Shown: positions 27,448 to 62,663 of the stretch, piece by piece
How the letters are laid out: each line of letters opens with the position of its first letter
Numbering within the stretch: the stretch's first letter is position 1
NCBI RefSeq assembly: GCF_012272835.1
Contig: NZ_JAAWWK010000001.1
Span: 1 to 64,000, forward strand
Reading direction: 5' to 3'
Length of the DNA: 64,000 nt
DNA from: Spongiibacter thalassae
GTDB lineage: Bacteria; Pseudomonadota; Gammaproteobacteria; Pseudomonadales; Spongiibacteraceae
The notes under the pieces: model-generated
What the model was told of the DNA's origin: nothing
What the model saw: the letters and a program-made list of their open reading frames with translations, nothing else
Database searches by the model: none
Position numbers and translations under genes: made by a program

Positions 27448-28917
27448 ATGAGGCCGTATCCTGAGCAAGTCCTGTTTATGGGGCCGATGAAGCCCCAGAG
27501 ATTCGAGGCTACAGTCGAAGATTGTATTGTCGAAGGTGAGGTTCCTGCTGATCTTGTCGGTGGGTTTTACCGCTGCGGACCTACGTGGAAGCGCGAAACG
27601 ATACAAGGGGTGACCGGGTTTTCTTCTCGTGACGGGATGGTTCAGGGGTTGATTTTTGAGCAAGGCAAGGTTCGTTACCTCAATCGCTGGGTGCGTTCTC
27701 CCAAGTACTTGCTTGAAGAGAAGCATGGAAAAGCCCTTTTTGAATGGCACGACGCGTGGGCCGATTGGCGTGGATACGGGCAAATCCCGAAGAATGACTA
27801 TGGAACTGTTACCTACGGCATTCCGGGTGGGTCGCCAATTGTAAACGCAGTCCCTTATTACGCACATACAGGGGATGAGGTTCTTGCTTTGGCCGAGCAG
27901 TCGCTTGCGCCGATGTCCTTAAACCCCAAGACCCTTGAGACGAACGGAATGGTTGAATGGTCCGGGATGCTTTCTCCTGGGATGGATGGTAATGCGACAT
28001 TCACTGCGCATCCTAAGTGGGACCCTGACACCGGCGAGATTTTCGGGTGGACTTATCGAGACACCGCGCCCTACGTGACTATGCATTTTGTTCAGCCTGA
28101 TGGCACAGTTAAGACACGTGAGCTCGACGACGCACCCTACGCGACAAATGCTCATGACGCGTGGTTGACAGAAAAGTATCTGGTACTGCCGTTTCAGCCG
28201 TTTTACGCCAGTACTGACCGAGTGATGAATCAAGACCTTTCATTCCTCGGTTGGGACCCGGAATTGCCAACTATTCTGGCGTTTATTCCGCGTAGTCTTG
28301 AGGGCGATATTCGCTGGATTAAAGCTGACTTTCCAACCGAATATATTATGCACACCATGTCTGCAAATGAGATTGACGGCAAAATTATTTTAGACGGCCC
28401 AATATTTGATCGAGCGCCTTTTCCATTTGAAGACGAAGTTGATATCGGGGAGGATTTTGTGCCTTTTGGTGCGGGTGTAATAGGTCGTTGGATAGTCGAC
28501 CTAGAGGCAGGGCGTATTGAGACAGAGCGCTTTGATGATCGCCCCGTAGAGTTTCCCAAGATAGATGAACGTTACTACGGCAAGCCCTATACGTGCGGTT
28601 TTTTGGTTAGCGGTCCGAATTTATTCATGCTTGATACTTTAATCAAGAGAAATGTTATTACCGGCGACGAAGAAGTTTGCAAATTAGTTTACGAGCAAGA
28701 TTTCGCCATATTCGAGCCAACATTTGTACCCCGGACAGCTGATGCGCCTGAGGGGGACGGTTATCTCATAGCGCCAATATCCCTTTACATGGATAACCTG
28801 TCTGAGTACGTAATCATCGACACCGCTAATTTCGAGTCCGGCCCAGTAGCGCGCATAAAGCTACCATTCCAAATAGGGTGGACGCCTCATGGGCATTGGA
28901 TGAATTTCAGTGCCTGA
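27448..28917 (+). CDS. Carotenoid-cleavage-type dioxygenase
   Basis: Non-haem Fe(II) oxygenase of 489 residues in the carotenoid oxygenase/lignostilbene dioxygenase/RPE65 family. The beta-propeller's four iron-binding histidines can be placed: His188 (TAHPKWDP), His236 (NAHDAWLTEKY), His302 (IMHTMSANE) and His481 (TPHGHW). Length and order match active members. The family splits C=C bonds in apocarotenoids or stilbenes. It leads an operon with an SCP2-like protein, two seven-helix proteins and a TonB receptor, which suggests cleavage of an imported hydrophobic compound rather than synthesis. The substrate is unknown. Confidence 0.85.
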   Translation: MRPYPEQVLFMGPMKPQRFEATVEDCIVEGEVPADLVGGFYRCGPTWKRETIQGVTGFSSRDGMVQGLIFEQGKVRYLNRWVRSPKYLLEEKHGKALFEWHDAWADWRGYGQIPKNDYGTVTYGIPGGSPIVNAVPYYAHTGDEVLALAEQSLAPMSLNPKTLETNGMVEWSGMLSPGMDGNATFTAHPKWDPDTGEIFGWTYRDTAPYVTMHFVQPDGTVKTRELDDAPYATNAHDAWLTEKYLVLPFQPFYASTDRVMNQDLSFLGWDPELPTILAFIPRSLEGDIRWIKADFPTEYIMHTMSANEIDGKIILDGPIFDRAPFPFEDEVDIGEDFVPFGAGVIGRWIVDLEAGRIETERFDDRPVEFPKIDERYYGKPYTCGFLVSGPNLFMLDTLIKRNVITGDEEVCKLVYEQDFAIFEPTFVPRTADAPEGDGYLIAPISLYMDNLSEYVIIDTANFESGPVARIKLPFQIGWTPHGHWMNFSA

Positions 28918-28962
28918 TTGAATACGAAATCTGTATTGCTATTTCGGATATATGGAATTGTT

Positions 28963-29346
28963 ATGACATTTTTAAGTGATCATTGGTTCGATGAATACCG
29001 TCGTTTGGGCGTTGATGTTGAAGTGCCGACGGCATTCATGGGGCTTGGTATTAATTTGAATATAAAGATGAATAACGGAGAGATAACGGAAGCGAGTTAC
29101 GTTAATGGGTTGCTTCAGAAGGGGCATTCTGAAATTGCTGAAACAACGATTACGGCTAGCGAGTCACTGGTATATACCGCTGTCGTACTAGGTGAATTTA
29201 AATCAGCTCTTCCGGCATATTTCTCTAAAAAGATAAAAGTAGAGGGCGAACAGGCTGCTTTGGTTAAGCTCGCTTCGGTTCGACCTACTGAGTCTCAGAA
29301 AGAGTTTTACAAAAAACTTAGAAAACTTTCCCCGTCGATGGGATAA
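28963..29346 (+). CDS. SCP2 sterol-binding-like protein
   Basis: Protein of 127 residues resembling sterol carrier protein 2 domains: an early WFDEYRRLG, a central strand block (INLNIKMNNGEI), and the C-terminal KKIKVEGEQAALVKLASVRPT, comparable to the family KIKVEGD stretch. SCP2 domains bind hydrophobic molecules such as sterols and acyl-CoAs, so it may hand substrate to the oxygenase. The start at 28963 (GGAA upstream) is preferred; an upstream TTG adds 15 residues. Similarity is moderate and should be confirmed by profile search. Confidence 0.55.
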   Translation: MTFLSDHWFDEYRRLGVDVEVPTAFMGLGINLNIKMNNGEITEASYVNGLLQKGHSEIAETTITASESLVYTAVVLGEFKSALPAYFSKKIKVEGEQAALVKLASVRPTESQKEFYKKLRKLSPSMG

Positions 29347-29376
29347 GTGAAATGCATAAATAGAGGGCAGTAATTA

Positions 29377-30138
29377 ATGAGTGATGTTTTAGAAATACCC
29401 ATGGAGCCACTTGTGCTGGCACCGGTTCTTGAAGCCGCGCCCGAGGGAGGAATGTACGCATATTTGCTATTTGGTTTTTTAGGGCTGATTGCTGTACTTC
29501 ATGCGCTTTATACCGGGTTTAAGCATAAACAGTGGATTCCATTGCTACTTTGTTTTGGGGGAGTGTTAGCCGTAACTGTAGAGCCAATGTATGACGTGTT
29601 GGGGGGTATAATTTACCGCGATACCTTTTTTGGGTTCGAGGCATTTAACCTAAATACGCCGGGTTACTTGTTCCCCGGTTACTTGTTGTGGGTGGCAACC
29701 ATGCCGTGGTTGATGTATGAACAATTAAAAAAAGGCATGACTGGAATGCCTCTTTATGCATTGTCTATCGCTGTTTTTATTTCCGTTATGCTAACTGATT
29801 ACGTCGGTATAAGCAGTGGTCACTGGCAATACTATGGCGAGGGGCCGTTCTCACACGTTGCCGGTTCCTTCTCAATGGGGCCGTTTTTGGTGCTGTCTGG
29901 CTGGCTGCTATTTGTATTGGATAAAAAGGTTAGGGGTTTAGCAAAGTTGTACTATGTCTTACTTCCAGGGGTGTTGTTGAACTTGGCATTTTCATGCATA
30001 AGTTGGCCAATATTCTTCACGTTGCATTCCGATATGCCGCTGATTGGAGACCTCGTCGCCGTAGCTATTACCTTGTCCCTTGCGGTAGCCGCGGTGTGGT
30101 TTGTAGATTCCGATATAAAAGATAGGCGCGCGGCCTAA
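29377..30138 (+). CDS. Seven-helix membrane protein of unknown function, paralogue A
   Basis: Integral membrane protein of 253 residues with about seven hydrophobic helices (near 26-46, 53-72, 95-112, 123-145, 162-182, 190-212, 222-245). Notable polar positions inside helices: EPMYDVLGGIIY (about 69-80), SGHWQYYGEGPF and SCISWPIF. The next gene encodes a paralogue that keeps these motifs. A distant similarity to AveC-type spirocyclase/dehydratase membrane proteins, which share an acidic-Pro/Tyr helix motif and a W-x-Y pattern, is possible but only suggested by eye. Its place between an oxygenase and a TonB receptor suggests an enzyme or carrier for a hydrophobic intermediate. Confidence 0.6.
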   Translation: MSDVLEIPMEPLVLAPVLEAAPEGGMYAYLLFGFLGLIAVLHALYTGFKHKQWIPLLLCFGGVLAVTVEPMYDVLGGIIYRDTFFGFEAFNLNTPGYLFPGYLLWVATMPWLMYEQLKKGMTGMPLYALSIAVFISVMLTDYVGISSGHWQYYGEGPFSHVAGSFSMGPFLVLSGWLLFVLDKKVRGLAKLYYVLLPGVLLNLAFSCISWPIFFTLHSDMPLIGDLVAVAITLSLAVAAVWFVDSDIKDRRAA

Positions 30139-30217
30139 TTGGCCATTAAGGAAGGGCTATATATTTAAGTGCGTTTACCAAATAATAATTTTCGATATAT
30201 AAGAAAGAGGATTTAAA

Positions 30218-30967
30218 ATGGATATTTCTGAGATATTTCAACACCCACAGATTGTGTCAACTGTAGGCGGTAATTTACCGCTGTACTTGTTTGCGCCTGT
30301 TGTGCTGGGGTCGATATTGTGGTGCCTTTACTTGTCGGTTAAAGAAAGGGACTTACTGCCGATCTTCGTCTGTATCGGCGCTTTTATATGCTCTTTAAAC
30401 GAGCCAATTTACGATATCCTTGGAAAAATCGTTTACGCCGAAAATAACCCGATGGCGTTCTCTAATATGGGGCGGGATATTCCCTGGTTTCTCGTCATAG
30501 GCTATATACCGTGGGTAGGTGCCCTATCCGTGCAGATTGCGAGAATGATGGCCAACGGTGTAGAGCGCAAGGTTCTACACTATATTGCATTAGGGTCCTG
30601 TATATCTGTTGTCCTCATAGAAACATTGGGTAATATGTCGAATGCTTGGCTGTACTACGGCGAAGCGCCTTTGAAATATCTTGTTGTGGCCCCTCAAATG
30701 GCACCAGTTCCGATAGTTGGCGGCTTGTTACTATACGCTTTTGCTTTTCCCCTTAAGGGACTGAAACGTGCCTTGGTCGCAATGGCTGTCAGTACGCTCG
30801 CATTGCCCATGGTGTTTGCCTCAGCGTCGTGGCCTCTTTATTACGGTTTATACGCCGAGTTGCCAAAGGTGATGGAATGGGTGTTGGGCGGAGCGATGCT
30901 GACATTCACGGTTATGACGGTGCTAGGTGCGACGTCTATAGCGTCACGTTTACATAAGGCAAAGTAG
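30218..30967 (+). CDS. Seven-helix membrane protein of unknown function, paralogue B
   Basis: Protein of 249 residues, paralogous to the preceding gene product. It shares the helix motif as EPIYDILGKIVY (about 66-77), WLYYGEAPLKY, and ASWPLYYGLYAELP, with the same seven-helix layout. AAGAGG precedes the ATG and 79 bp separate the two genes. Two retained copies imply a heterodimer or two related substrates. The conserved Glu-Pro-x-Tyr-Asp and Tyr-Tyr-Gly-Glu residues inside a membrane protein look catalytic rather than structural. Function unknown. Confidence 0.6.
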   Translation: MDISEIFQHPQIVSTVGGNLPLYLFAPVVLGSILWCLYLSVKERDLLPIFVCIGAFICSLNEPIYDILGKIVYAENNPMAFSNMGRDIPWFLVIGYIPWVGALSVQIARMMANGVERKVLHYIALGSCISVVLIETLGNMSNAWLYYGEAPLKYLVVAPQMAPVPIVGGLLLYAFAFPLKGLKRALVAMAVSTLALPMVFASASWPLYYGLYAELPKVMEWVLGGAMLTFTVMTVLGATSIASRLHKAK

Positions 30968-30999
30968 CAGCATCGTATGACAGGAAATAGGATAAAAAT

Positions 31000-33267
31000 A
31001 TGAATAAGTTATTATTTACCTTGTCGCTTACATTTATAGCGTCTACTTCTGCAATAGCTGCGGAAGGACGACGCTCAGCTATAGAAGAGGTAGTGGTTAC
31101 AGCGACAAAGCGCGATGGGAATCTGCAGGATACGACAATTGCGATCTCCGCTATGGGAGCAGAGCAACTGGAATTCAGGGATGTAAGTAGCTTGTCTGAC
31201 ATGCAGAACTCGGTGCCGAACTTGCAGTACGGTGAAATTGGCGGAGTTCCCTTTATAGCCGTCCGAGGTATCGGCTTTAATTTACCCTTGGGCATCGGTG
31301 AACCAGGGGTGGCAGTGCATGTCGATAATGTCGCGTTACCTAGACTTGGTAGTATGAGTACGGCAGGTATGGACATGCGCCAAATAGAAGTACTTCGTGG
31401 ACCACAAGGCACGGTATATGGGCGAAATGCGACGGGTGGGGCGGCTAATTTTGTATCGACTCCACCGACTCAGGAGTTTGACGCTAAAATAACTATTGGT
31501 GCTGGTTCAGAAGGGCGTCAAACTGTAGAAGGGTATTTATCCGGTCCGCTTACTGATAGGTTTCGCGGTCGCTTCTTCTATATGAAAGATGAATTTGACG
31601 GGTTTGGGATTAATGAATTTAACGGAGACAAGGTAGGTGGGACTGCAACAGAGGGATTTCGCGCGGCCCTCTCTTTAGATTTGAGCGATAGTTTAATCAT
31701 CGACTTAAACATGTACAAACGAACCGATACCGGATCTGACCCAACCGCATCCCCAGTAAATATTGAAGAGTTAACCACTGTGCTGGGTACGCCGTTCTTG
31801 AAACCAGGTGTTGGTGTTAGCGGTGATCCAAATAATATTAATGACGATAGAACGCCTTTCACAGGTAAAGAAACAGAATTAGCGATCTTAACATTAAGTT
31901 GGGGGGCAGAAAATTTCGATCTAAAGTCAATTTCGGCCAAAATCCATCATAAGACAGATCAATACTACAGCGTCGATGCAACAAATTACTTCATTATAGA
32001 TGCGATAAGAGACGAGGACTCGGATACCTTTTCTCAGGAGTTTGATCTATCGGGTTCACTATTTGATGCGAGTGTAGATTGGCTGCTAGGTGCGTTTTAC
32101 TTCCAGGATAAGGGCAATACAAATTTCACACCCCTTTTAAATGCTGACGAACTCAGCGGCACAGCTACAACGCCAACTGGGGGTGTATTAGTATTAGATG
32201 CGCTGCTCGAAGATCAGATTAACATTGCTAAAGCTGTTTTTTCTGAAGTTTCATGGCACTTTCACGAAGAGTGGAAATTCCTGGTAGGTGCGAGGTATAG
32301 CGAAGAAACCAAGAAGGCTTTGCAAACATTTAATGCAATCATAGACTCATCAAATGTACCAGCTGCCTTACTGCCAGTCCTTAATACAGTAGTTTCGCCA
32401 GTTGCAGGTTCGGTCATAAGTGACAGTTGCAGCGAATTTTCGACTAAAGTCGGATTCACATCCTTTGACCCAAAGTTAGAACTGTCATGGCAGCCTAATG
32501 ATGAGATATTAGTTTATGTTCAAAACCAGCGTGGATTCAAAGCGGGAGGAATAAGCAGCACTGAATGTGGCGAAAGCTATATTCCGGAAAAAGTAAATTC
32601 TTCTGAGGTCGGGCTGAAAGCGCAATTTTTTGACAATCAGCTAACGATTAACTCTGCGATATTTCATTACGAATACACGGATTATCAGGTGCTCGAATAC
32701 AATGGTATTGGGTTGCGAGTTATCAGCGCACCAAAGGCATCCGGCGTAGGTGTGGAATCAGAAATCATGTATGCGCCAAAAAATTGGTTGAATATTGATC
32801 TGGCCTTATCCTACCTCGACGCGAAATACGATGAGTTTATTGATGAGGATGGTTTTGAAAACCCCAACTTCTTTACTGATGTCGCCGAGCCTCAGGACTT
32901 GTCAGGAATGCCATTGAATCGTGCGCCTAAATATACCGGGAACCTTGGGCTTAATTTATTTATTCCTTTTGATTCACGTTTTGTAAATGAATCACAGATT
33001 CGTCTGGAAGCATATACTACGGATTCAGTAGCGTTTACTCAGTTCTCGTACAAGGATTCGGATCGGCAAGAGGGTTATTCGTTATATAATGCCTACTTTG
33101 GGTTGAGTATGCTTGATAGTAAGTTGAATGTACGAGCTTTTGTAAAAAATATAACAAATAAAGATTATATTATCGGCGTCTTTACCGCCGATATTATTCA
33201 TCTAACGTCGCAAATTCATGCCGATCCGCGGAGCTATGGATTGCAGTTGAGTTATCAGTTTGACTAA
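31000..33267 (+). CDS. TonB-dependent outer-membrane receptor 1
   Basis: Receptor of 755 residues. Signal peptide 1-20, TonB box IEEVVVTATKR (about 28-38), plug domain with VRGIGFNLP and IEVLRGPQGTVYGRNATGG, then a 22-strand-type barrel ending LQLSYQFD with a terminal aromatic residue. The VVTATKR and SIP/NLQ plug features place it in the large group of catabolic receptors of marine gammaproteobacteria and sphingomonads, which import hydrophobic organic substrates, rather than clear siderophore receptors. It follows the two membrane-protein genes by 32 bp and is probably in their operon. Confidence 0.9.
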   Translation: MNKLLFTLSLTFIASTSAIAAEGRRSAIEEVVVTATKRDGNLQDTTIAISAMGAEQLEFRDVSSLSDMQNSVPNLQYGEIGGVPFIAVRGIGFNLPLGIGEPGVAVHVDNVALPRLGSMSTAGMDMRQIEVLRGPQGTVYGRNATGGAANFVSTPPTQEFDAKITIGAGSEGRQTVEGYLSGPLTDRFRGRFFYMKDEFDGFGINEFNGDKVGGTATEGFRAALSLDLSDSLIIDLNMYKRTDTGSDPTASPVNIEELTTVLGTPFLKPGVGVSGDPNNINDDRTPFTGKETELAILTLSWGAENFDLKSISAKIHHKTDQYYSVDATNYFIIDAIRDEDSDTFSQEFDLSGSLFDASVDWLLGAFYFQDKGNTNFTPLLNADELSGTATTPTGGVLVLDALLEDQINIAKAVFSEVSWHFHEEWKFLVGARYSEETKKALQTFNAIIDSSNVPAALLPVLNTVVSPVAGSVISDSCSEFSTKVGFTSFDPKLELSWQPNDEILVYVQNQRGFKAGGISSTECGESYIPEKVNSSEVGLKAQFFDNQLTINSAIFHYEYTDYQVLEYNGIGLRVISAPKASGVGVESEIMYAPKNWLNIDLALSYLDAKYDEFIDEDGFENPNFFTDVAEPQDLSGMPLNRAPKYTGNLGLNLFIPFDSRFVNESQIRLEAYTTDSVAFTQFSYKDSDRQEGYSLYNAYFGLSMLDSKLNVRAFVKNITNKDYIIGVFTADIIHLTSQIHADPRSYGLQLSYQFD

Positions 33268-33403
33268 CTCGGCGTTCTTCGCTGCAAAGTATTGATATAG
33301 ATAATTTGCGATAAAGCGTGCGCAAATTTCTCTCGCATTGGTATTGCTCGCTAAATGGATGTCTACTGGTAAATAGTTTGCCAACGTATAGGGATTAATC
33401 ATT

Positions 33404-34480
33404 TTGACCAAGAGAGTCTGCTCGGGCAGTCTACTTTTCATGCTGTTGTACTTCGGCTTGGCGTGTCTAGCTAATGACACGCAGGCCGGAGTCTATAATG
33501 CAACGAAAACTAGCACAGGCCACGCCATAACGAAGCAAATCACCAACCGATTACAGGTTTTCGGTGTTATAGAGTCGACTGAAAAGCCGACTATTACTGC
33601 GGAGGTTCCGGGGGTCGTTGCGGAAGTTTATGTGGACGAGGGGCAAGAGGTCGTTGAAGGACAGTTACTGGCTACATTAGATTTGAGCAATTACTTAATT
33701 GCTGAAAGCTTGTCAAGGTATGAGTTGCTTAAAAAAAAGGAAGAATTAGCGAAACGAGTTGACCATTACAAGCGAATTAGTGCTTTATCAGCGACGGACA
33801 ATATTAGCCAGGAAGCTTTAGCGTCTACGAATAGAGACATAGCAATTGATAGACTATCTGTCGAGGTCATGCGCCGACATCATGAAATTGCATTACAAGA
33901 CATAAAAAGGGCAAATATTGTATCGCCTATTAATGGGGTGGTTACCAAGCGTCACGCTTCCAAAGGTGACTATCTTGGCGTATCTATGCCAATTCTGTCC
34001 ATTATAGACGATAAATTATTGAGGGTACGATTGAAAGTGTCTCCCAGTGATGCAAGCCGTATGGTACCAGGTCAGCGTATCGCGATTTCTTCGGTTAACT
34101 TGCCCGATAAGCTATTCGAAACTACCGTCGAAGCGATTGTTCCGGTGATTGATGCTAAAAGTAACTCTTTAGATGTGCTGGCTTCAATTCAGGATCCGCT
34201 TCTAATATCAGGGATGAGGATAGAAGCAAGTGTATATATAAGAGAAGCGTACGACGCTTTGTTGGTGCCTGAGCGAGCGCTATTTCGTCGCGAAGATAAA
34301 TACTACCTGTATGTTTTAAAAGACGGGCGCGCACATGAACAGTATGTTGAGGTTGGACTCCGTCATGCTGATTTAGTCGAAATCATAAAGGGGATTACAA
34401 GCCAGACTGTTATTTTACTCGATGTTTATCAAGGAATTAGCGATGGCGCTTTAGCTAATGAATTGGGTGTGTTTGAGTGA
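33404..34480 (+). CDS. RND efflux periplasmic adaptor
   Basis: Membrane-fusion protein of 358 residues. N-terminal signal (residues 1-29), lipoyl/barrel-sandwich halves (TAEVPGVVAEVYVDEGQEVVEGQLLATLD and ANIVSPINGVVTKRHASKGDYL), a short hairpin between, then beta-barrel and membrane-proximal domains (SGMRIEASVYIREAYDALLVPERALF). The start is TTG at 33404 with a weak ribosome site; a Met at residue 13 would spoil the signal's basic N-terminus. It overlaps the RND pump gene by 4 bp. No outer-membrane TolC-type gene is adjacent. Confidence 0.85.
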   Translation: MTKRVCSGSLLFMLLYFGLACLANDTQAGVYNATKTSTGHAITKQITNRLQVFGVIESTEKPTITAEVPGVVAEVYVDEGQEVVEGQLLATLDLSNYLIAESLSRYELLKKKEELAKRVDHYKRISALSATDNISQEALASTNRDIAIDRLSVEVMRRHHEIALQDIKRANIVSPINGVVTKRHASKGDYLGVSMPILSIIDDKLLRVRLKVSPSDASRMVPGQRIAISSVNLPDKLFETTVEAIVPVIDAKSNSLDVLASIQDPLLISGMRIEASVYIREAYDALLVPERALFRREDKYYLYVLKDGRAHEQYVEVGLRHADLVEIIKGITSQTVILLDVYQGISDGALANELGVFE

Positions 34481-42606: not shown

Positions 42607-42733
42607 TGTCGACCTACATAATCTCTGTTGACATAAGCGATTTCCAAAGGCATTCAGTAGTGACAGTGAACAAAGATCACACCATGCTACTACGGTTGTA
42701 GATAGTTTTACCAATTATAGAAGGAATTTGGCG

Positions 42734-43861: not shown

Positions 43862-43872
43862 ATGCTTAATAA

Positions 43873-43899
43873 GAAAACGTCTTTTTATCACGACGTTTT
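43873..43899 (+). terminator. Hairpin after the first APH-type kinase
   Basis: AAAACGTC and GACGTTTT arms around a 10-nt loop, followed by GTTATTTT. Position just past the stop codon suits a rho-independent terminator, though the stem is short. Confidence 0.4.
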
Positions 43900-43972
43900 G
43901 TTATTTTAAAAATACATAAAAATTTGAAGGCGCCCGCCGAGTAATGTTAATAAATAGAATATAGGTCTTATT

Positions 43973-45019: not shown

Positions 45020-45085
45020 TTTTCACAGGATTTTGAATTTTCAATGTAACGATAAAAACGAAACCTAATGGGTTTTGAGGACGAT

Positions 45086-53364: not shown

Positions 53365-53377
53365 GCGAGAATCTACT

Positions 53378-54121: not shown

Positions 54122-55227
54122 TGAAAACGAATAAGGTGTTTAGTATGTTTTTCAATGAGGAACAGCAAGCTCCGCAAAGCTGGGAGCGTGTTAAGCAGTA
54201 TTTGGCTGGCCACGATTTGGCACTGGATCTTGATGCTGGTATTCGGCAGTTCTCTTCGGGCGCGGCAAATATGAATTATCTCATTCATATTAACGGCCAA
54301 AAGGCGGTGATGCGTTGTCCGCCTAAAGGCTCGTCGCCAGGCGCGAATGATGTGGCTCGGGAATACAAGGTCTTGTCAGGTTTGGCTAGCCAGTATTCCT
54401 ATGCACCAAATGCCATTCACCTGTGCGAAGACAGCAGCATTACGGGTGTTCCTTTCTGTATCAGTGAATTCAGAGAAGGGACGCCGATTACCACGGTATT
54501 GCCAGAGAGTTTGGCTGAGCAGCCAAATATAGGTCGTAAGCTAGGCGAGCTATCACTCAGCGCCTTGGCAGAATTACATCGTGTCGATGTTGATGTGGCG
54601 GGCTTATCGGCACTTGGAAAAAAGGACGGGTTTCTTGAACGCCAAGTCGAGGGCTGGGGGAAGCGCGCTAAACGGGTATTGCCGCCGGACGATTTAGAAC
54701 GTGCCGAACGGGTCGTCAATATGCTGAGAGCAAGTTTGCCTACGTTCCGCCCAAATAGCTTAGTACATAATGATTTCAAGCTAGACAATATGTTGATCGA
54801 TCCCGAGAGACTGACGCTAAATGCGGTACTGGATTGGGATATGTGTACCCTCGGTGACCCACTGTTTGACTTGATGGTGACCATTTTGTACTGGGGTAGT
54901 ACGGACGATAGCGAATTATTCAAGCATTTAGCCAGAATGCCCTATGAGGCCGATGGATGGATGAGCCGAAGTGAGGCAATTGATTATTATCTCGCCTTAT
55001 CAGATTACCCACGAGACACCGAGGCCTTGGTCTTTTATTGGACTTTGGCCCTGTTTCGCTTTGCAATCATCATCGCCCAGCTAATAGCGATTTACGAGGC
55101 TGACGCCATGGAAACGGTGCATGTGAATAAAAATAATCTACTGGAGGTGAAAGAGCGAGTAAGTCTTATTCTAAATGAACTCGTAGCCCCTAGTGTGGAC
55201 AACCATACGATTCTATTTTCACGCTAG
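54118..55227 (+). CDS. APH-family phosphotransferase (ACAD10/LvaA kinase type) B
   Basis: Kinase of 369 residues. SSGAANMNYLI and AVMRCPP resemble the nucleotide-binding lobe; catalytic loop SLVHNDFKLDNMLI and metal-binding VLDWDMCTLGDPLFDL follow the acyl-CoA-linked subgroup closely (HNDFKLDNM is typical of ACAD10/11 and LvaA kinases). It is closer to them than kinase A. The start may be 54118 (overlapping the SDR) or 54145, which has AAGGTG at good spacing. It sits two genes downstream of the ACAD10/11-like enzyme, supporting a joint phosphorylation/elimination step. Confidence 0.82.
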   Translation: MMKTNKVFSMFFNEEQQAPQSWERVKQYLAGHDLALDLDAGIRQFSSGAANMNYLIHINGQKAVMRCPPKGSSPGANDVAREYKVLSGLASQYSYAPNAIHLCEDSSITGVPFCISEFREGTPITTVLPESLAEQPNIGRKLGELSLSALAELHRVDVDVAGLSALGKKDGFLERQVEGWGKRAKRVLPPDDLERAERVVNMLRASLPTFRPNSLVHNDFKLDNMLIDPERLTLNAVLDWDMCTLGDPLFDLMVTILYWGSTDDSELFKHLARMPYEADGWMSRSEAIDYYLALSDYPRDTEALVFYWTLALFRFAIIIAQLIAIYEADAMETVHVNKNNLLEVKERVSLILNELVAPSVDNHTILFSR

Positions 55228-55361
55228 TTAAAATTCTAGTTTTTTGATAAAAATTATTTTTTAAACCGAGAATGAGGAGGCTATGATGTCAACGAAACCG
55301 CGGTCGTTTATAGCGTGACGTTAAGTCGAATTTTTAGTGTTTAGTATTAAAGGAGTGGTCT

Positions 55362-56552
55362 GTGGATCTTAATTTCTCAGCAGAGGATGAATTGTTTCGG
55401 CTGCAAGTTCGTGACTATTTTAAAAATGATTATCCTAAAGACATTATTGCTAAAGTTAGCGCTGGAAAATCAATGGTTAAAGCCGATTATCAGCGTTCTG
55501 AGCAGGCACTGGCTAAAAAGGGCTGGCTGGCGGTTAACTGGCCTAAGGAGCACGGCGGTCCCGGCTGGTCGGTAGTGCAACGTTATATATTTGATGAAGA
55601 GTTAGAGATAGCTGGGGCACTAAATGTTATTCCCATGGGCTTGTTGTATTTTGGCCCGGTGTTATACACCTTTGGGAGTGAAGCGCAGCGCGAGCGTTGG
55701 CTCCCCGGCATTTTAAACAGCACTACTTTTTGGGCGCAGGGTTATTCTGAACCGGGGGCAGGCTCGGATCTGGCTTCATTAACATGCCGGGCAGATCGCC
55801 AGGGGGATGAGTACTGCATTAATGGCAGCAAAATTTGGACTAGTTATGCCCATTTTGCTGATTGGATATTCTGTTTAGTACGTACCGACCCAGCATCTAC
55901 TCGTCACGACGGTATTAGCTTTATTTGTGTTGATATCCGCAGCCCCGGTGTTGAGGTAATACCAATTCGCTCAATAGATGGCGAACATCACCTGAATCGT
56001 GTCGAGTTTAATAATGTCAGAGTGCCGATAGAAAACCGGATCGGCGACGAAGGCAAGGGCTGGCATTACGCTCAATATTTGCTCGGCCATGAGCGCACTT
56101 CTTATGCGCATGTCGGGGCGCGAAAAGCAGAGCTTGCGCTTATAAAAAATGCCGCTAGAACCGCAGGCGTTGGCGGTAGCTCCCTACTTAAAGACCCTTT
56201 ATTTGCCAGTAAACTAGCGCGCACTGAAATAGCAGTAAAAACCCTCGAGTACACGACATTACGTATTTTGTCTGCCACCCAAGTGGGCGCTGCACCAGGA
56301 AATGAATCTTCTATTCTAAAAATATTGGCGACGGAATGCGCCCAGGCAGTGAGTACCTTAATGCTTGAATTAGCCGGGGCTGATGGACTGACTGAAAAAG
56401 CAGTTTCATTGCCACTAAGTGAACGCCAAGGTCTTAGTGGCGCAATGTGTACCGAAAAATATTTGTTTGATCGTGCCCAAACGATCTACGGCGGTACTAC
56501 TGAGATTCAAAAAAATGTAATCGCTAAACAAGTATTGGGGCTGCGCTCATGA
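55362..56552 (+). CDS. Acyl-CoA dehydrogenase, alpha-type subunit
   Basis: ACAD of 396 residues. FAD/substrate region WAQGYSEPGAGSDLASLTCRA and NGSKIWTSYAHFADW; C-terminal FDRAQTIYGGTTEIQKNVIAKQVLGLRS, with Gly where medium-chain ACADs have the catalytic Glu. GTG start at 55362 with AGGAG upstream. The stop overlaps the next ACAD gene (ATGA). This arrangement is that of heteromeric dehydrogenases that handle steroid-ring or branched side-chain CoA esters. Confidence 0.88.
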   Translation: MDLNFSAEDELFRLQVRDYFKNDYPKDIIAKVSAGKSMVKADYQRSEQALAKKGWLAVNWPKEHGGPGWSVVQRYIFDEELEIAGALNVIPMGLLYFGPVLYTFGSEAQRERWLPGILNSTTFWAQGYSEPGAGSDLASLTCRADRQGDEYCINGSKIWTSYAHFADWIFCLVRTDPASTRHDGISFICVDIRSPGVEVIPIRSIDGEHHLNRVEFNNVRVPIENRIGDEGKGWHYAQYLLGHERTSYAHVGARKAELALIKNAARTAGVGGSSLLKDPLFASKLARTEIAVKTLEYTTLRILSATQVGAAPGNESSILKILATECAQAVSTLMLELAGADGLTEKAVSLPLSERQGLSGAMCTEKYLFDRAQTIYGGTTEIQKNVIAKQVLGLRS

Positions 56553-57670
56553 ATTTTGATTTAAGCTCAGAACAAATCATGTTGCGTGACTCGGCAAATC
56601 GTTATGTTAAAGAGTGTGGCGCAAGTCCTAAAAGCACCGATGCCGAAGTCTCGCTTATTCAAGATTTTGCCAAATTGGGGTGGTTGGGACTGTCGCTACC
56701 AGAAAAATGCGGCGGCGTTGGTGGCTCAGCTATCGATGTCATGGTGCTATGCGAAGAACTGGGTCGTGGCCTTCTGCTTGAGCCTTATTTGTCGGTGCTG
56801 TTGGCGGGGGAGTTATTGCTTGCAAGTGAGGTAGATGCGAAGGCTGCGCAGGGAGGCGTCGTCTCTAGTTTACTTGCAAATATTGTCAGCGGTAATACTT
56901 CTATTGCCACTGCCTTGTATGAGGCTGACAGTCGATTTGAATTAGCGCGGCAATCATGCGTGGCGCAAGTCTGTGAGCAGGGCTATACACTCAATGGCAC
57001 AAAATCATTTGTACTCAATGGCGCTCAGGCTGATCAGCTACTTATTTCTGCCCGCACACAAGGGCAGTTTAATGATGCGAGTGGAATTTCTTTATTTTTA
57101 CTTGATCGTAAAACACCAGGATTAGCGCTTGACCCCTATTACAGTTTTGACGGCTTGCCGATGGCAACGCTTAGCCTAAGCAATGTTGTGCTCAGGAAAG
57201 AAGCCTGCTTAGTTTCCAATACCGCCTTGCCAATAATGGAAGCTGCTATTGAGAAGGTCATTATTGCCCTTTCAGCGCAGGCTTTAGGTGCAATGGAGAC
57301 CTTGCTGTATAGCAGTATTGAATACTGCCAATTACGGCAGCAATTCGGAAAAAAAATAACTCAGTTTCAAGCTGTTCAACATCGCTTTGTTGATATGTAT
57401 ATGGCCTGCGAAGAAGTGCGTTCGCTATTGTATGCAGCGGCGATAAAGCAGGTCGAATCTGCACCCGATGCAAAACTAATTACGGCGATGCTAAAGGTGA
57501 AGGTGGGGGAAGCCGGGCGGTTTCTTGGCGAACAGTCTGTGCAATTGCACGGCGCCATGGGTTTTACAGAAGATCTCTTGGTGGGGCGGCTCTATAAACG
57601 TTTACTGGCTATAGATACCCTATTTGGGAATGCAGATTATCATTTAAAGCGCGTTATTAAACTGTCGTAG
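56549..57670 (+). CDS. Acyl-CoA dehydrogenase, beta-type subunit
   Basis: ACAD of 373 residues, more diverged than its partner. N-terminal LRDSANRYVKE and LGWLGLSLPEKCGGVGGSA; C-terminal QLHGAMGFTEDLLVGRLYKRLL, followed by FGNADYHL instead of an active-site YEGT. Glu and FAD-loop motifs are degenerate: the central FAD segment reads TALYEADSRF and lacks the TEP/SEP box. That fits a subunit of a heterotetramer with the preceding gene product, as in ChsE-type enzymes. Four-bp overlap supports equal expression. Confidence 0.8.
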   Translation: MNFDLSSEQIMLRDSANRYVKECGASPKSTDAEVSLIQDFAKLGWLGLSLPEKCGGVGGSAIDVMVLCEELGRGLLLEPYLSVLLAGELLLASEVDAKAAQGGVVSSLLANIVSGNTSIATALYEADSRFELARQSCVAQVCEQGYTLNGTKSFVLNGAQADQLLISARTQGQFNDASGISLFLLDRKTPGLALDPYYSFDGLPMATLSLSNVVLRKEACLVSNTALPIMEAAIEKVIIALSAQALGAMETLLYSSIEYCQLRQQFGKKITQFQAVQHRFVDMYMACEEVRSLLYAAAIKQVESAPDAKLITAMLKVKVGEAGRFLGEQSVQLHGAMGFTEDLLVGRLYKRLLAIDTLFGNADYHLKRVIKLS

Positions 57671-57760
57671 GTTTTGATGTAGCCAATTGAGCGGTGTCGC
57701 GGTCGGGGCTAGGTTTGATTGTCAGGGCAATTCCCACTTACTGAGGTTAAAGGATATAGT

Positions 57761-59890
57761 ATGGAAAATAATAGTCGCAAAGTTCCTACCTTCTGCCGTA
57801 TTTGTGAGCCGGGTTGTGGTTTACTCGCAAACGTCGAAAATGGCAAAGTCCTTAAATTAGAGCCAGATAAAAACCATCCGGTACATAAAGGCTTCGCCTG
57901 CCACAAGGGCTTAACGTTTACCCAAGTGCATAATGACCCCGACCGCTTAGATAGACCCCTGCGTCGTTTGAATCAACGGCAAGACGATAAGGGCGATTTT
58001 CAGGCGGTAAGCTGGGACGAAGCGATGGCCGATATTGCTACCCGTATACAGGCTATTCAGGCCAAATATGGCGATACGGCGGTAGCTGGGTTTTACGGCA
58101 ATCCAACGGCATTTAATAGCACTTCAACGACGGCATTGCCGCAGACACTAGCGAAACTCGGTTCGCGGCGAGTGTTTAGTTCTGCGACGCAAGATTGCTC
58201 TAATAAGATGGCCGGTAGTGAGGCGGTCTTTGGCACGAGCCTACTTCACCCGATTCCAGATTTATTACATAGCGATTATTTTTTGTGTATTGGTGGTAAT
58301 CCAAAGGTATCGCACATGAGTTTTGTGCATACCACTGCACCTATGGATAAAATTCGCGATATTAAAAAGCGCGGCGGCAAAGTTGTTTTTCTTAACCCGA
58401 GAAATATAGAATCATCGACCCCGGCAACCGGTGAGGTATTACTCATAAAACCAGACACCGACGTCTATTTTTTAGCTGCGGTGATACATCACGTCTTAGC
58501 TATTAATGCCGTCGATCGTCTTCATGTTGAACAGTATGGTAAAAATGTTGAAGGCCTGTTCGATTTTGTCAATCGCTATTCACCTGAACGAGCGGCAGCG
58601 GTAACCGGTATCGATGCTGTTGACATTTGCCAAGTAGCCAAGGATTTCTCACAAGCTAAGGCGGCCAGTATCCATATGTCTACGGGCGTTAATATGGGCC
58701 GCCAGGGCACCTTGGCTTATTGGCTATTGAATATGCTCAGTTTTATTACCGGCAATCTCGGCCGAAAAGGTGGGAATATATATTCTCCGGGCTTCTTTTC
58801 GATATCCGCTTTAGGAAAGTCCTCGGTATCTGACCATTATATGGATAGCCCACTGGGTAAGATCAGGGCGATTTCTGGTGTGTTACCCGGTAATTTGTTG
58901 GCCGACTTTATTGACGCTGAACATGAGCCGATTCGCGCCTTAATCATTAATTCCGGCAATCCTTTATTGTCAATGGCGGGCGAGTCGCGACTTAGGCAGG
59001 CTTTCAACAAGCTCGAGCTTATTGTGGTGATCGATATCTATCGTAATGCCACTGGTGAACTTGCTGACTACGTGTTGCCAGCGACTGATTGGCTTGAGCG
59101 TGCGGACGTTAACAGTCTAGGTTTGGGATTTCAGCTCGAACCCTTTGCTCAATATAGCGATGCAGTGGTAGCAGCTAAAGCCGAACGCAAAAACGAATGG
59201 TGGATACTTGCGCGTTTGCTGCACGAGTTGGGCATGGCGGAAATGCCAGAAAGTGACTCCCCTAAAGCATTTTCTGGAATGGAGCGGATGTTGTCTGCGA
59301 GTGGCCTAAGCATTGCGAAGTTAAAGGCTATGCCTAGCCAAACCAAAGTGCTAGCTCAAACGGCACCTGCGTCGGTATTCGAACAGGGCGTTCAACATGA
59401 CGATGGCAGGGTTGATTGTTGCCCGGCTATTTTTGCTGAGGCCATCGAAAACGCGTCCCGAATATACGATGAGTTGGTCGTAGAGCAAAGTGGCCAATTG
59501 AAGCTGATTAATTTGCGGACCAACTATATGCACAATAGTTGGTTGCAGAATTTGCCAGCCCTGAAAAGAGGTATACACGCCAGCAACCCTTTATGGATGA
59601 ATCCTCGCGACGCTGCATTGCGGCAGTTACAAGAGGGCGACACGGTAGTCGTTAGCAATGTTAATGGCGAGATAACTGCGCAACTTGGCCTAGATCCAAA
59701 ACTCAGAGTGGGTGTGGTTGCCATGACCCATGGTTTAGGAAATGTTCAGAGCCATGGTATGAAAGTCGCTCAGGCGTCTCCCGGGGTGAACGTTAATCAA
59801 CTGCTTCCAATGGGGTTGAACAGTTATGAAAAGCTCAGTAATCAGTCACATATGACCGGTATTCAAGTTGAGGTGAGAGGGCTTGCCTAG
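57761..59890 (+). CDS. Molybdopterin (bis-MGD) oxidoreductase
   Basis: DMSO-reductase-family catalytic subunit of 709 residues. An N-terminal [4Fe-4S] motif CRICEPGCG...C has Cys12, Cys15, Cys19 and Cys47 (C-x2-C-x3-C-x27-C). Cys146 in TQDCSNKMAG aligns with the Mo-coordinating residue of Nap/FDH-type enzymes. C-terminal guanine-dinucleotide domain from about residue 600 (WMNPRDAALRQLQEGDTVVV). No signal or Tat motif, so cytoplasmic. No electron-transfer subunit gene is beside it. ATG at 57761 has AAGGA. It may act as a hydroxylase or reductase on the pathway substrate; the reaction is unknown. Confidence 0.85.
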   Translation: MENNSRKVPTFCRICEPGCGLLANVENGKVLKLEPDKNHPVHKGFACHKGLTFTQVHNDPDRLDRPLRRLNQRQDDKGDFQAVSWDEAMADIATRIQAIQAKYGDTAVAGFYGNPTAFNSTSTTALPQTLAKLGSRRVFSSATQDCSNKMAGSEAVFGTSLLHPIPDLLHSDYFLCIGGNPKVSHMSFVHTTAPMDKIRDIKKRGGKVVFLNPRNIESSTPATGEVLLIKPDTDVYFLAAVIHHVLAINAVDRLHVEQYGKNVEGLFDFVNRYSPERAAAVTGIDAVDICQVAKDFSQAKAASIHMSTGVNMGRQGTLAYWLLNMLSFITGNLGRKGGNIYSPGFFSISALGKSSVSDHYMDSPLGKIRAISGVLPGNLLADFIDAEHEPIRALIINSGNPLLSMAGESRLRQAFNKLELIVVIDIYRNATGELADYVLPATDWLERADVNSLGLGFQLEPFAQYSDAVVAAKAERKNEWWILARLLHELGMAEMPESDSPKAFSGMERMLSASGLSIAKLKAMPSQTKVLAQTAPASVFEQGVQHDDGRVDCCPAIFAEAIENASRIYDELVVEQSGQLKLINLRTNYMHNSWLQNLPALKRGIHASNPLWMNPRDAALRQLQEGDTVVVSNVNGEITAQLGLDPKLRVGVVAMTHGLGNVQSHGMKVAQASPGVNVNQLLPMGLNSYEKLSNQSHMTGIQVEVRGLA

Positions 59891-59937: not shown

Positions 59938-60768
59938 ATGAAAAATTTTAATAATAAAGTCGTAGCGATTACTGGTGCAGGCTCGGGTATAGGGCAGGCG
60001 CTAGCAATTAATTTGTCACAGCTAGGTGCTTGCTTGGCGTTGGCTGATATTAACGAAGCGGGACTGGCGAAGACTCAGGCATTATTGAATATTGGGCTAC
60101 GGGTCTGTAGTCATAACGTGGATGTTGCAAATAAAGATGCTGTGTATCAATGGGCTGATGATGTCGTAGCCTACCATGGTCATGTGGATGTGCTGATTAA
60201 TAATGCTGGGGTAGCCGCTAATGCGCCTATTGAATCGTTAGATTACGATGATTTTAACTGGGCGTTTAACATTGTATTTTACGGTGTCTTGTATGGTTGC
60301 AAAGCATTCTTACCGTATTTAAAGCAACGCCCAGATGCACATATTATAAATCTGTCGAGTTTAGTGGGGTTTATTCCGTTTCCTAATAGTGCGGCCTACA
60401 ATTGTTCCAAGCACGCGGTAAAGGCCTTTAGTCAGACACTTATGCAAGAACTGCGGGGCAGTAATATTCATGTGACGTCGGTGCATCCCGGCGGTATTAA
60501 AACCAATATGATGCGTAATAGTCGCTACGAAACCATGCCCAGTGGACTTGACCATAAAGGCATGATTAAGGCCTTTGATAGCATTGCGCTGACCTCCTCA
60601 GATAAAGCCGCAAAAATTATTATTAGGGGTGCCTTGAAAAATAGGCCGCGCCAACTGGTCGGTGTTGATGCAGTAATAGCAGAGTTTTTGAGCCGCGTAT
60701 TTCCAAATTCTTTTGTACGCTGGATGGGGATGTTGATGCTGCATATGGAAAAAAAGTGGCAGCAGTAA
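59938..60768 (+). CDS. Short-chain dehydrogenase/reductase C
   Basis: SDR of 276 residues. TGAGSGIGQ (12-20), ADIN giving an NAD-type Asp after strand two, NNAG (88-91), Ser near 140, Tyr154 and Lys158 in YNCSKHAVK. The C-terminal tail (from about 220) is longer than usual and ends with an amphipathic or hydrophobic helix (RWMGMLMLHMEKKW), which may associate with the membrane. It lies 47 bp after the molybdoenzyme and 26 bp before an MDR gene. Confidence 0.87.
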   Translation: MKNFNNKVVAITGAGSGIGQALAINLSQLGACLALADINEAGLAKTQALLNIGLRVCSHNVDVANKDAVYQWADDVVAYHGHVDVLINNAGVAANAPIESLDYDDFNWAFNIVFYGVLYGCKAFLPYLKQRPDAHIINLSSLVGFIPFPNSAAYNCSKHAVKAFSQTLMQELRGSNIHVTSVHPGGIKTNMMRNSRYETMPSGLDHKGMIKAFDSIALTSSDKAAKIIIRGALKNRPRQLVGVDAVIAEFLSRVFPNSFVRWMGMLMLHMEKKWQQ

Positions 60769-60794
60769 ACTAAGCCAAACCAAACGAGGATATT

Positions 60795-61811
60795 ATGAGT
60801 AAACAGGCTCAACACAAACACGTAATGTTAACTGGCTATGGTGGGGTAGATCAGCTCAATGTAGTAGATGCAGATATTCCGACACCCCAGAAGGGCGAGC
60901 TGCTTATTCGCGTTGAGTTTGCCGGTGTGGCATTTGCAGATGTCATGATGCGCTACGGTAAGTATCCGGGGGCGCCCAAACTGCCCTTTACTCCTGGTTA
61001 TGATGTGGTTGGCATTGTTGAACAAGCACCAATCGACTCAGCGTTTAGCGAAGGGACTCGGGTTGTGGCGCTGACGCAATTTGGCGGCTATGCGCAATAC
61101 GTGGTAGCAGATCAGCGCGGAGTGGTTGCTGTACCGGACTCAGTTGCCCCCGAGAAAGCGGTGTGCCTGGGTTTGAATTACTTAACCGCATATCAAATGC
61201 TATACCGCACTTGCCATTTAAAACCCAATGACACTCTGCTGATTCACAGTGCCGCTGGCGGCGTGGGAAGTGCGGTTTTACAGTTGGGGCGCCACCTAGA
61301 ATTAAAGCTGTATGGTACGGCCTCTAGCCCTAAGCATAACTTATTGAAGCAATACGCTTGTGTGCCGATCGACTACCGCAACGACGACTTTGTCCAAGTA
61401 TGCTCAGCACTGGAACCCAAGGGTTTTGATGTTATTTTAGACCCTATCGGGCCATCTAACTGGAAGCGCTCAAAGCAATTGCTGAAAAAGGGTGGGCAGT
61501 TGGTTGGTTATGGTAATTTGGGTCTGCATGATAAAGAGCGCAATACAATGTCGGGTGGTCTTTTAGCGTTATTAGTTGGCGCATTGTCGGTGAAAATGAC
61601 CATGTTACGGTCACGGTTTTCATTTTACGGCGTGTCGGTTGGTAATCTCGTTAAAACGCAGACGGATTTAAAGGCTTTACTTAGCTTGGCAGCCGCACAA
61701 AAAATTGATCCTGTGATAGCCGAAATTTTACCGCTAGCACAGGTGCAACTAGCCCACGAAAAATTAGCGTCGGGTGCGGTGGCGGGAAAAATTATTTTGG
61801 ATTGTCGCTGA
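60795..61811 (+). CDS. Quinone-oxidoreductase-like MDR
   Basis: Zinc-independent medium-chain reductase of 338 residues (quinone oxidoreductase/VAT-1 type). Motifs: GVAFADVMMRYGKYPGAPKLPFTPGYDVVG and cofactor loop HSAAGGVGSAVLQLGR. The later segment LLKKGGQLVGYGNLG is also typical. NADPH is the usual cofactor. GAGGA precedes the ATG at 60795. It probably reduces an enone or quinone-like intermediate. Part of a three-gene tail of reductases that closes the operon. Confidence 0.85.
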   Translation: MSKQAQHKHVMLTGYGGVDQLNVVDADIPTPQKGELLIRVEFAGVAFADVMMRYGKYPGAPKLPFTPGYDVVGIVEQAPIDSAFSEGTRVVALTQFGGYAQYVVADQRGVVAVPDSVAPEKAVCLGLNYLTAYQMLYRTCHLKPNDTLLIHSAAGGVGSAVLQLGRHLELKLYGTASSPKHNLLKQYACVPIDYRNDDFVQVCSALEPKGFDVILDPIGPSNWKRSKQLLKKGGQLVGYGNLGLHDKERNTMSGGLLALLVGALSVKMTMLRSRFSFYGVSVGNLVKTQTDLKALLSLAAAQKIDPVIAEILPLAQVQLAHEKLASGAVAGKIILDCR

Positions 61812-61868
61812 GCAGTAATTCAAAGCCAAGTATTTACCCCCTGCGTTCAATACAATTAAGAGAATAAT

Positions 61869-62663
61869 ATGAGTGAAAAATTAGCATTAATTACGGGGGC
61901 GTCTGCGGGAATAGGGCGAGAGTTTGCGCGGATACTTGCCAGCAAAGGTCTTGATTTGCTCATTGTGGCTCGTCGTGAAGCGCGGCTATTGGCGCTAAAA
62001 GCCGAATTGGAGCAAAAGTACGCCATCACTGTACATTGCCTGGCGATAGATTTAGCCGCCGAAGGAGTTGAACAGCAGATAAGCGACAAGGTGCGTGAAA
62101 TCGGCACACCTCTAGGTTGGTTGGTAAATAATGCGGGTTATGGCATTACCGGCAGGCTAGACGAAACTGCGCTGAGTGAGTATGAACGCTTTCTCAAAAT
62201 CATGTTAACTGGCCCAGTCGCACTTACCCAGCTGCTCTTGCCAGATTTAAAGAAGGCCGCGCCAGCGCATATTATTAATGTGGCCTCCGTCGCGGCATTT
62301 TTACCGGGTACGCCGGGAGCCGGTGTATACCCAGCGTGTAAGGCTTTTATTAAATCTTATACTGAAACATTGGCGGGGGAGTTACGCAACAGCCAAGTCT
62401 ATGCTACCGCATCGTGTCCGGGTATGACTAAAACCGAAATATTTGATGTTATGCCTGAATCTGCTGATGTCGAAAAAATGAAACAACGCCCCGGCATGTC
62501 CGCAGCCGTTGTTGCACAGCAAGCGGTTAATGCTGTTGAGTCTGGCAAAGTAGTGATTGTTCATGGCTTGGTAAATAAAATTATTGCTGCAATATTTAGC
62601 TTAATGCCTTTGCGCTTATCGATGTATATCGTCGCTAAGGCGTATCCACTAGAAGAGAATTAA
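61869..62663 (+). CDS. Short-chain dehydrogenase/reductase D (DltE-like)
   Basis: SDR of 264 residues. TGASAGIGREFA (9-20), ARRE after strand two (NADP preference), NNAG (87-90), Ser140, Tyr154 and Lys158 in YPACKAF. The RLLALKAELEQKY helix and C-terminal IFSLMPLRLSMYIVAKAY are characteristic of the DltE/YqjQ-like group. It is the last intact gene on the plus strand before the regulator remnant. Confidence 0.87.
   Translation: MSEKLALITGASAGIGREFARILASKGLDLLIVARREARLLALKAELEQKYAITVHCLAIDLAAEGVEQQISDKVREIGTPLGWLVNNAGYGITGRLDETALSEYERFLKIMLTGPVALTQLLLPDLKKAAPAHIINVASVAAFLPGTPGAGVYPACKAFIKSYTETLAGELRNSQVYATASCPGMTKTEIFDVMPESADVEKMKQRPGMSAAVVAQQAVNAVESGKVVIVHGLVNKIIAAIFSLMPLRLSMYIVAKAYPLEEN

Follow-up and report, generated by a model that had tools for sequence, protein, structure and literature searches.

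A probable acquired catabolic island at a tRNA-Pro gene of Spongiibacter thalassae, with a candidate kinase-lyase pair for ATP-dependent dehydration of a sterol- or terpenoid-like compound

We analyzed a 64,000-nucleotide stretch of the Spongiibacter thalassae genome (NCBI RefSeq assembly GCF_012272835.1, contig NZ_JAAWWK010000001.1, positions 1 to 64,000; hereafter the window), and within it a block of genes at 27448-62663 that holds, side by side at 42728-45019, a phosphotransferase-type kinase gene and a gene for a DUF7065/DUF7064 protein. An initial annotation, made from the sequence alone, had described this block as a ~35-kb catabolic island for a hydrophobic compound, isoprenoid- or steroid-like, with nearly all genes on one strand. 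We counted 28 genes, 27 of them on the plus strand; the exception is an Lrp/AsnC regulator (37601-38572, minus strand). Together with a second Lrp/AsnC regulator (26209-27153, minus strand), it splits the stretch into two units, each regulator having tandem helix-turn-helix (HTH) domains by Pfam and being divergent to the unit that follows. Unit A (27448-37548) encodes a carotenoid-type oxygenase, a 142-aa protein, two membrane proteins, a TonB receptor, and a resistance-nodulation-division (RND) pump; unit B (39602-62663) encodes enzymes and one TonB receptor. The two regulator gaps have no repeats in common.

The kinase of the pair (kinase 1; 42728-43861, plus strand) is of the APH/EcKL type according to Pfam (PF01636 at 5e-26), alignment, and PDB comparison, and we propose that it is a hydroxysteroid- or terpenol-type kinase. 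Its best solved relative is the APH-like protein 9fsg, and D254, N259, and D272-W273-E274, which we take to be the usual APH catalytic residues, are invariant in 12 sequences. Pfam, a fold search, and a profile suggest that the adjoining DUF7065/DUF7064 gene (43973-45019, plus strand) encodes a phospho-alcohol lyase of the 25-phosphosteroid lyase (25-PSL) family; the linkage of kinase and DUF7064 genes had led us to a comparison with the 25-hydroxysteroid kinase (25-HSK) system before the fold search was made. When a profile of 16 DUF7064 proteins was run against the PDB, 25-phosphosteroid lyase was matched at E values of 6.2e-19 and 9e-18 and AttH at 0.021, with nothing else up to E 10; by this measure the DUF7064 family is homologous to 25-PSL. 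The protein had earlier been called AttH/CrtC-like, and a structural model, itself weak, agrees: a fold search with it returned AttH, Diels-Alderases, kievitone hydratase, and three 25-phosphosteroid lyase entries, and the model matched the two-domain beta fold of 25-PSL. These three PDB entries (9fzn, 9g2i, and 9g4c, released January 2026) were identified as the lyase by their names. The most conserved motif of the DUF7064 family is RDxSWGxR, and the second island copy is canonical (RDRSWGVR). Two PDB lyase sequences differ by Asp/Asn within this motif; the Asn form, 9g4c, may be an active-site mutant designed to hold the ligand in place, and the motif Asp may be catalytic.

As described in part of the text of PMC8449060, 25-HSK acts as a phosphotransferase on tertiary alcohols of sterols, and a lyase can then take the phosphate off again; the lyase gene was still unknown at that time (2021), and a portion of PMC11061730 still calls the lyase putative in 2024. 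In the 5.39 million open-licence papers searched, neither DUF7064 nor DUF7065 was named, and no paper among those listed named the lyase gene in its title or abstract opening, although a paper on 9fzn may exist elsewhere. The island resembles the 25-HSK/25-PSL system of Sterolibacterium denitrificans in combining a phosphotransferase-type kinase with a lyase-like protein of matching profile (E 6e-19) and, as far as the weak model goes, the same fold. S. denitrificans has an anaerobic cholesterol pathway with Mo hydroxylases; in the island, by contrast, the kinase and lyase-like genes are adjacent and in several copies, and are accompanied by cytochromes P450 (P450s) and oxygenases of alkene-cleaving families.

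PF23212, the Pfam family of these DUF7064 proteins, is rare: it was found in 4 of 398 genomes of the phylum at 1e-3 (2 of 398 above the family cut-off, including the present genome, which has six copies) and in 7 of 120 genomes of the family of genome G649. All six DUF7064 genes of this genome adjoin an APH kinase gene or sit one gene away from one, the genome having 24 APH-family matches. For a wider count we took all PF23212 places from the phylum and G649-family scans, plus plasmid records picked to spread genera (8 of 18 and 2 of 2), and retained the DUF7064 genes scoring at least 50 bits over the fetched loci, 33 in all; L041 and L042 (from G496 and G387; below the family cut-off), L055 (a duplicate of L023), and matches under 50 bits were left out. 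A phosphotransferase gene lay within 300 bp of 23 of the 33, within 3 kb of 26, and within 8 kb of 31, as judged with profiles whose 13 kinases and 14 DUF7064 proteins were all taken from the same loci; at up to 300 bp, 18 partners were APH/EcKL and 5 were phosphoenolpyruvate (PEP)-utilising. L049 was counted as lacking a partner, though its record annotates an edge phosphotransferase ~7 kb away; no partner was found for L059, and L060, whose matches are weak at 51 and 34 bits, was included among the adjacent cases. As a control, other open reading frames (ORFs) of at least 250 aa at loci with a phosphotransferase gene were within 300 bp of one in 32 of 294 cases, or 31 of 262 when limited to 10 kb around DUF7064 genes. 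Counts for other families around the 33, made with single-sequence queries and thus less sensitive than the kinase profile, were acyl-CoA dehydrogenase (ACAD) 1, short-chain dehydrogenase/reductase (SDR) 1, enoyl-CoA hydratase (ECH) 7, CoA ligase 3, and P450 0 within 300 bp, and 13, 14, 16, 12, and 5, respectively, within 8 kb. The phosphotransferase linkage of DUF7064 genes is far above that of other gene families.

Several further pairs were recorded alongside this count. Four lie elsewhere in the S. thalassae genome (C1:272840-274752, C1:381763-383063, C9:398615-399936, and C1:123874-126320). A plasmid of M. branderi has two kinase/DUF7064 pairs (L051 and L078), with genes for a CoA ligase and two ACADs after one of them; the adjacent pair at L078 scores 59.7 bits and stands outside the 33. 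For some DUF7064 genes the nearest phosphotransferase is PEP-utilising and not an APH kinase: three at L024 on an M. avium plasmid, two at L052 in Rhodococcus sp. 008, one of the two at L056 (G683), and those at L057 (G709) and L058 (G723). Such neighbors are possibly PEP-driven versions of the same dehydration.

The other genes of the two units all lie on the plus strand and were assigned by Pfam unless stated otherwise; the assignments uphold most of the gene families first listed. Unit A begins with a carotenoid-oxygenase-family (RPE65) protein (27448-28917; also PDB comparison and alignment) that keeps the four Fe-ligand His residues, followed by the 142-aa protein (28918-29346), for which the label SCP2-like finds no support: it has no Pfam match at 1e-3 and no NCBIfam match at 0.01. 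The two membrane proteins (29377-30967), missed at first along with the two AsnC regulators, are a protein with no Pfam match (29377-30138; Pfam scan and locus comparison) and its paralogue (30218-30967; 29% in sequence comparison). TonB-dependent receptor 1 (31000-33267) and the RND pump (33404-37548) complete the unit, the pump consisting of an HlyD-type periplasmic adaptor (33404-34480) and an ACR_tran permease (34477-37548), both also matched in NCBIfam.

Unit B opens with an Amidohydro_3 hydrolase (39602-41347) of the D-aminoacylase type, as had been read, its best solved relatives being D-aminoacylases; the mechanical ORF start is 39587, and the ATG at 39602 is preceded by GGAGG. There follow SDR 1 (41800-42606), the kinase/DUF7064 pair, TonB-dependent receptor 2 (45068-47329), ECH 1 (47450-48220; also NCBIfam), an EthD-domain protein (48228-48620), a medium-chain dehydrogenase/reductase (MDR 1; 48652-49671) resembling curcumin-reductase-like double-bond reductases (381 bits, short of the cut-off of 440), a DUF3237 protein (49677-50141), ECH 2 (50157-50993), ACAD1 (51081-52292; also NCBIfam), MDR 2 of the zinc alcohol dehydrogenase type (52309-53364), and SDR 2 (53378-54121). 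The EthD and DUF3237 genes had also been overlooked. Kinase 2 (54118-55227) is an APH kinase whose solved relatives include the kinase part of ACAD11 and which has no DUF7064 neighbor; after it come ACAD2 (55362-56552) and ACAD3 (56549-57670), whose genes overlap, the molybdopterin oxidoreductase (57719-59890, 723 aa; also NCBIfam), SDR 3 (59938-60768), MDR 3 of the quinone-oxidoreductase type (60795-61811; also NCBIfam), and SDR 4 (61869-62663).

The nearest solved relatives of ACAD2 are 4x28 (182 bits) and Tcur3483 (6wy8/6wy9), with ACAD11 far lower (78 bits); for ACAD3, ACAD11 is absent among the matches listed (60 of 85 relatives). Presumably 4x28 (M. tuberculosis) and Tcur3481/Tcur3483 are steroid-type heteromeric ACADs. 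With these steroid side-chain enzymes the island has in common an overlapping gene pair and a large subunit nearest 4x28 and 6wy8/6wy9, whereas for its small subunit, ACAD3, the matches listed place other ACADs ahead of 6wy8_A and 4x28_D. We propose ACAD2/ACAD3 as a heteromeric pair, with ACAD3 as the partner subunit. The molybdoenzyme was considered as a steroid C25 dehydrogenase (S25DH) and rejected in that role. S25DH has a large alpha subunit and partner subunits; no large ethylbenzene-dehydrogenase-type alpha subunit with partner subunits was seen here, the molybdoenzyme scoring 44.9 bits against EthbenzDh_ebdA (cut-off 2000) and having an ACAD and an SDR as neighbors.

The ~35-kb limits first given to the island had to be widened on both sides, as the segment starts at about 24124, at the 3' end of a tRNA-Pro (CGG) gene (24047-24123, plus strand; ARAGORN and Rfam), and extends beyond the window end, reaching at least about 106 kb. 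This tRNA, the only Rfam family matched at 23000-64000, marks the left edge of the island and is its likely insertion site. Here, G+C falls from about 55% to 45%; in 2-kb steps, it is 0.54-0.60 up to 24 kb, 0.41-0.51 from 24 kb to the window end, at or below about 0.50 beyond it on the same contig to ~106 kb, and mixed (0.47-0.55) to 140 kb. Among the marks of a tRNA-borne island, the tRNA and the G+C shift are thus present, the integrase is an apparent remnant only, and no flanking repeat was found. An 880-base probe was matched in 17 of 18 genomes of the genus (own included), relatives matching its tRNA end only. Because the sequence 3' of tRNA-Pro in the six relatives whose stretches were read differs from that of this genome, no clean empty insertion site was found in the genus comparison. 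At 1e-20, the window DUF7064 protein was found in a single genome, its own, among 293 of the order and again among 398 of the phylum. Matches to the carotenoid-type oxygenase occur in 11 of 21 genomes of the family including this one; those outside this genome have 28-38% identity across the aligned segments, and within the plasmid collection the oxygenase is closest to Rhodococcus proteins (45-48%). Judged from the distribution of these two genes, the island is foreign to its lineage.

A phage-type integrase adjoining tRNA-Pro (24725-25900) is apparently broken. Labels here come from our reading of the ORF list and are a small HTH-like ORF (24373-24804, minus strand) beside the integrase remnant, a small excisionase/HTH-like ORF (24725-24940, plus strand), and the apparent remnant itself, spread over several frames (24952-25900, plus strand).

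From 62.9 to 106 kb, Pfam (labels such as IS3 being our own reading) assigned patatin, abhydrolase, WS/DGAT in two frames, a thiolase-like protein, a START protein, three P450s, FAD and GMC oxidoreductases, two aldehyde dehydrogenases, a nitronate-monooxygenase-like protein, an ACAD pair, a large ACAD, SDRs, ECH, a CoA transferase, an AMP ligase, a third kinase, a second DUF7064 gene, two TonB receptors, and a transposase. The second kinase/DUF7064 pair of the island, at 79636-83868, is separated from the window pair by ~35 kb. The beyond-window ACAD5/ACAD4 are paralogues of ACAD2/ACAD3 at 37-39%. An MpaB/Lcp (rubber-oxygenase family) protein is encoded at contig positions 94510-95601, in the same island as the carotenoid-type oxygenase.

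Parts of this gene set recur in other genomes. A 10.9-kb contig from an alphaproteobacterial metagenome-assembled genome (L014), the sole relative from one scan of genome contigs, carries the window pair (kinase 69%, DUF7064 76%) and the 79636-83868 pair (65% and 58%) tail to tail, and the two island pairs therefore belong together; it also has relatives of the island TonB receptor at 83968 (50%) and of the tandem AsnC regulator at 37601-38572 (28%). Relatives of the unit A membrane proteins adjoin kinase/DUF7064 genes in Diaphorobacter (two copies) and on an M. avium plasmid (120 bits), a link between unit A and unit B. On the Novosphingobium sp. EMRT-2 plasmid pABRDHK22 (L025), eight gene families of the island recur within ~17 kb: kinase, DUF7064, EthD, TonB, P450 (47%), molybdoenzyme (30%), Amidohydro_3 (45%), and CoA transferase (51%). 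Over the 30.6 kb of it that were compared, neither the carotenoid oxygenase nor the MpaB/Lcp protein of the island had a match.

With a probability of roughly 0.62, we read these genes as a horizontally acquired catabolic block, inserted at tRNA-Pro, for a sterol- or terpenoid-like compound, with a kinase-lyase ATP-dependent dehydration at its core. The TonB receptors would import the compound; an APH-type kinase would phosphorylate a hydroxyl, probably tertiary, and the DUF7065/DUF7064 protein would eliminate the phosphate to leave an alkene, as in Sterolibacterium 25-HSK/25-PSL, with the pairs at 42728-45019 and 79636-83868 serving one pathway. The carbon skeleton may be oxidized or cleaved by P450s and by the carotenoid-type and MpaB/Lcp-type oxygenases. 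Beta-oxidation may fall to aldehyde dehydrogenases, the CoA ligase or transferase, steroid-type heteromeric ACADs, ECH, and SDR, and the RND pump may expel toxic intermediates. The substrate class of the initial annotation is thus plausible and now better grounded. It remains the best reading, although its stated basis was partly wrong (SCP2); the informative feature is the kinase-lyase pair matching 25-HSK/25-PSL, alongside ACAD2 near 4x28/Tcur3483 and the MpaB/Lcp-type oxygenase, P450s, and START protein beyond the window. The statement that no described pathway has this gene set agrees with our findings for the whole set, but the kinase-lyase step has a biochemical precedent.

A number of observations weigh against this interpretation. 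According to PMC8449060, there is no lyase candidate near the 25-HSK gene of S. denitrificans, so kinase-lyase linkage is not universal; 2 of the 33 DUF7064 genes lack a detected phosphotransferase partner, and the 33 are a non-random sample (loci chosen by DUF7064, not by kinase). The window DUF7064 protein alone gave no 25-PSL match in the PDB at E 5, and the profile match lies largely in the N-terminal half, with a single short C-terminal stretch in addition. In the conserved motif the window copy reads REHGFGPR, with Glu replacing the motif Asp of 25-PSL and Phe for Trp. The model is poor (mean pLDDT 51.9, pTM 0.57), and the fold type also serves hydratases and pericyclases. For the kinases, a 12-sequence profile is nearer 3dxp (1e-85) and ACAD11 (8e-68) than 9fsg (9e-60), and that 9fsg may be 25-HSK is a guess from entry codes. 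When all island proteins were compared with outside loci (L014, L023-L025, L039-L042, L047, and L057-L060), no carotenoid-type or MpaB/Lcp oxygenase was a best match, and the alkene-cleavage step consequently draws on this island alone. A search for an att repeat found none: even with 3 mismatches allowed, the genome has a single copy of the final 25 bases of the tRNA, so that the right end of the island was not fixed.

The DUF7065/DUF7064 protein might instead be a hydratase, isomerase, or cyclase (similar to CrtC, kievitone hydratase, or a Diels-Alderase, which have or may have the same fold), with the kinase feeding another step. At the sequence level, however, 25-PSL alone matched strongly, the profile found no Diels-Alderase or kievitone hydratase entry up to E 10, and linkage to a phosphotransferase is what a phospho-lyase needs, so we consider this quite unlikely. 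A second possibility is that the kinases work with ACADs, as in the 4-hydroxy-acid systems LvaA/LvaC and ACAD10/11 described in an excerpt of PMC11342911, where a 4-hydroxyacyl-CoA is phosphorylated and an ACAD eliminates. Kinase 2 matches ACAD11 and directly precedes the ACAD pair, so that an APH kinase adjoining ACAD genes (54118-57670) is common to both systems, and the 12-kinase profile matches ACAD11 as well. ACAD2 and ACAD3 are, however, of another type by the comparisons above, kinase 1, the kinase at 79636, and other paired kinases adjoin DUF7064 genes, and an ACAD gene lies within 300 bp of only 1 of the 33. This makes the explanation unlikely for the island as a whole; an LvaA-like step for kinase 2 may exist and would be compatible with phosphorylation and elimination by the kinase/DUF7064 pairs.

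The carotenoid-type oxygenase, on which the isoprenoid reading was first based in part, does belong to the RPE65 family, but it falls nearest to the lignostilbene dioxygenase branch: lignostilbene dioxygenase is its top NCBIfam match, and among solved structures it comes closest to a "dioxygenase" (5v2d) and to lignostilbene dioxygenases. The block could accordingly be a lignostilbene or aromatic-dimer cluster in which a phenolic stilbene is split by the oxygenase and the acids are left to the other enzymes. The NCBIfam score, however, is 262.8 bits against a curated cut-off of 800, and the phenol-binding lysine is missing, Lys-134 being Ala in the island protein (LALAEQ versus YAMKED) and Gly in two Rhodococcus relatives; a section of PMC8191317 describes how Lys-134 of lignostilbene dioxygenases binds the phenol. 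The stilbene role was set aside because of this position and the cut-off. A lignostilbene route would also need aromatic-ring cleavage enzymes, which are not among the Pfam matches of 27448-62663, and we regard it as very improbable. It is possible, if somewhat unlikely, that units A and B and the blocks past the window end do not form one pathway but are independent catabolic cassettes accumulated at an insertion hotspot, as the two regulators, the opposite-strand blocks, the differing sequences 3' of tRNA-Pro in the six relatives, and the kinase/DUF7064 pairs elsewhere in the genome would allow. Set against this are the union of both island pairs in L014, the membrane-protein relatives beside kinase/DUF7064 genes in two other lineages, and the eight families that the EMRT-2 region has in common with unit B and beyond.

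Dehydration by phosphorylation and elimination has so far been known from one oxygen-free cholesterol pathway, and the island is probably a further case. On this reading, a phospho-lyase activity can be proposed for two Pfam domains that had no assigned function, and, if it is true, a reaction described from one anaerobic cholesterol degrader becomes a two-gene signature readable from genomes. The kinase/DUF7064 signature occurs on plasmids and islands of several bacterial lineages, within clusters that are so far uncharacterised, and these may mark degraders of sterols, triterpenoids, or terpenoids. More tentatively, DUF7065/DUF7064 could be a broad phospho-alcohol lyase family with APH/EcKL or PEP-dependent partners and the reaction a general dehydration strategy in Proteobacteria and Actinobacteria, the alkenes being cleaved in this island by non-stilbene carotenoid-type and MpaB/Lcp-type oxygenases.

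A plasmid cluster of a tomato Sphingobium was considered as a relative and dropped: its amidohydrolase matches at 41.6%, its kinase scores 21 bits to the kinase profile, it has no DUF7064 gene, and kinase, phosphotransferase, and amidohydrolase were not found as terms in its paper. A two-sequence model of the unit A membrane proteins was unusable (mean pLDDT 42.6). At the window end, a patatin-like protein (62913-64000, minus strand; a 471-aa ORF reaching 64328 in the contig) is the first gene of the next, opposite-strand block. The WS/DGAT acyltransferase at contig positions 65372-66861 is split into two overlapping ORFs with the catalytic and C-terminal parts apart, perhaps a broken gene or a sequencing frameshift.

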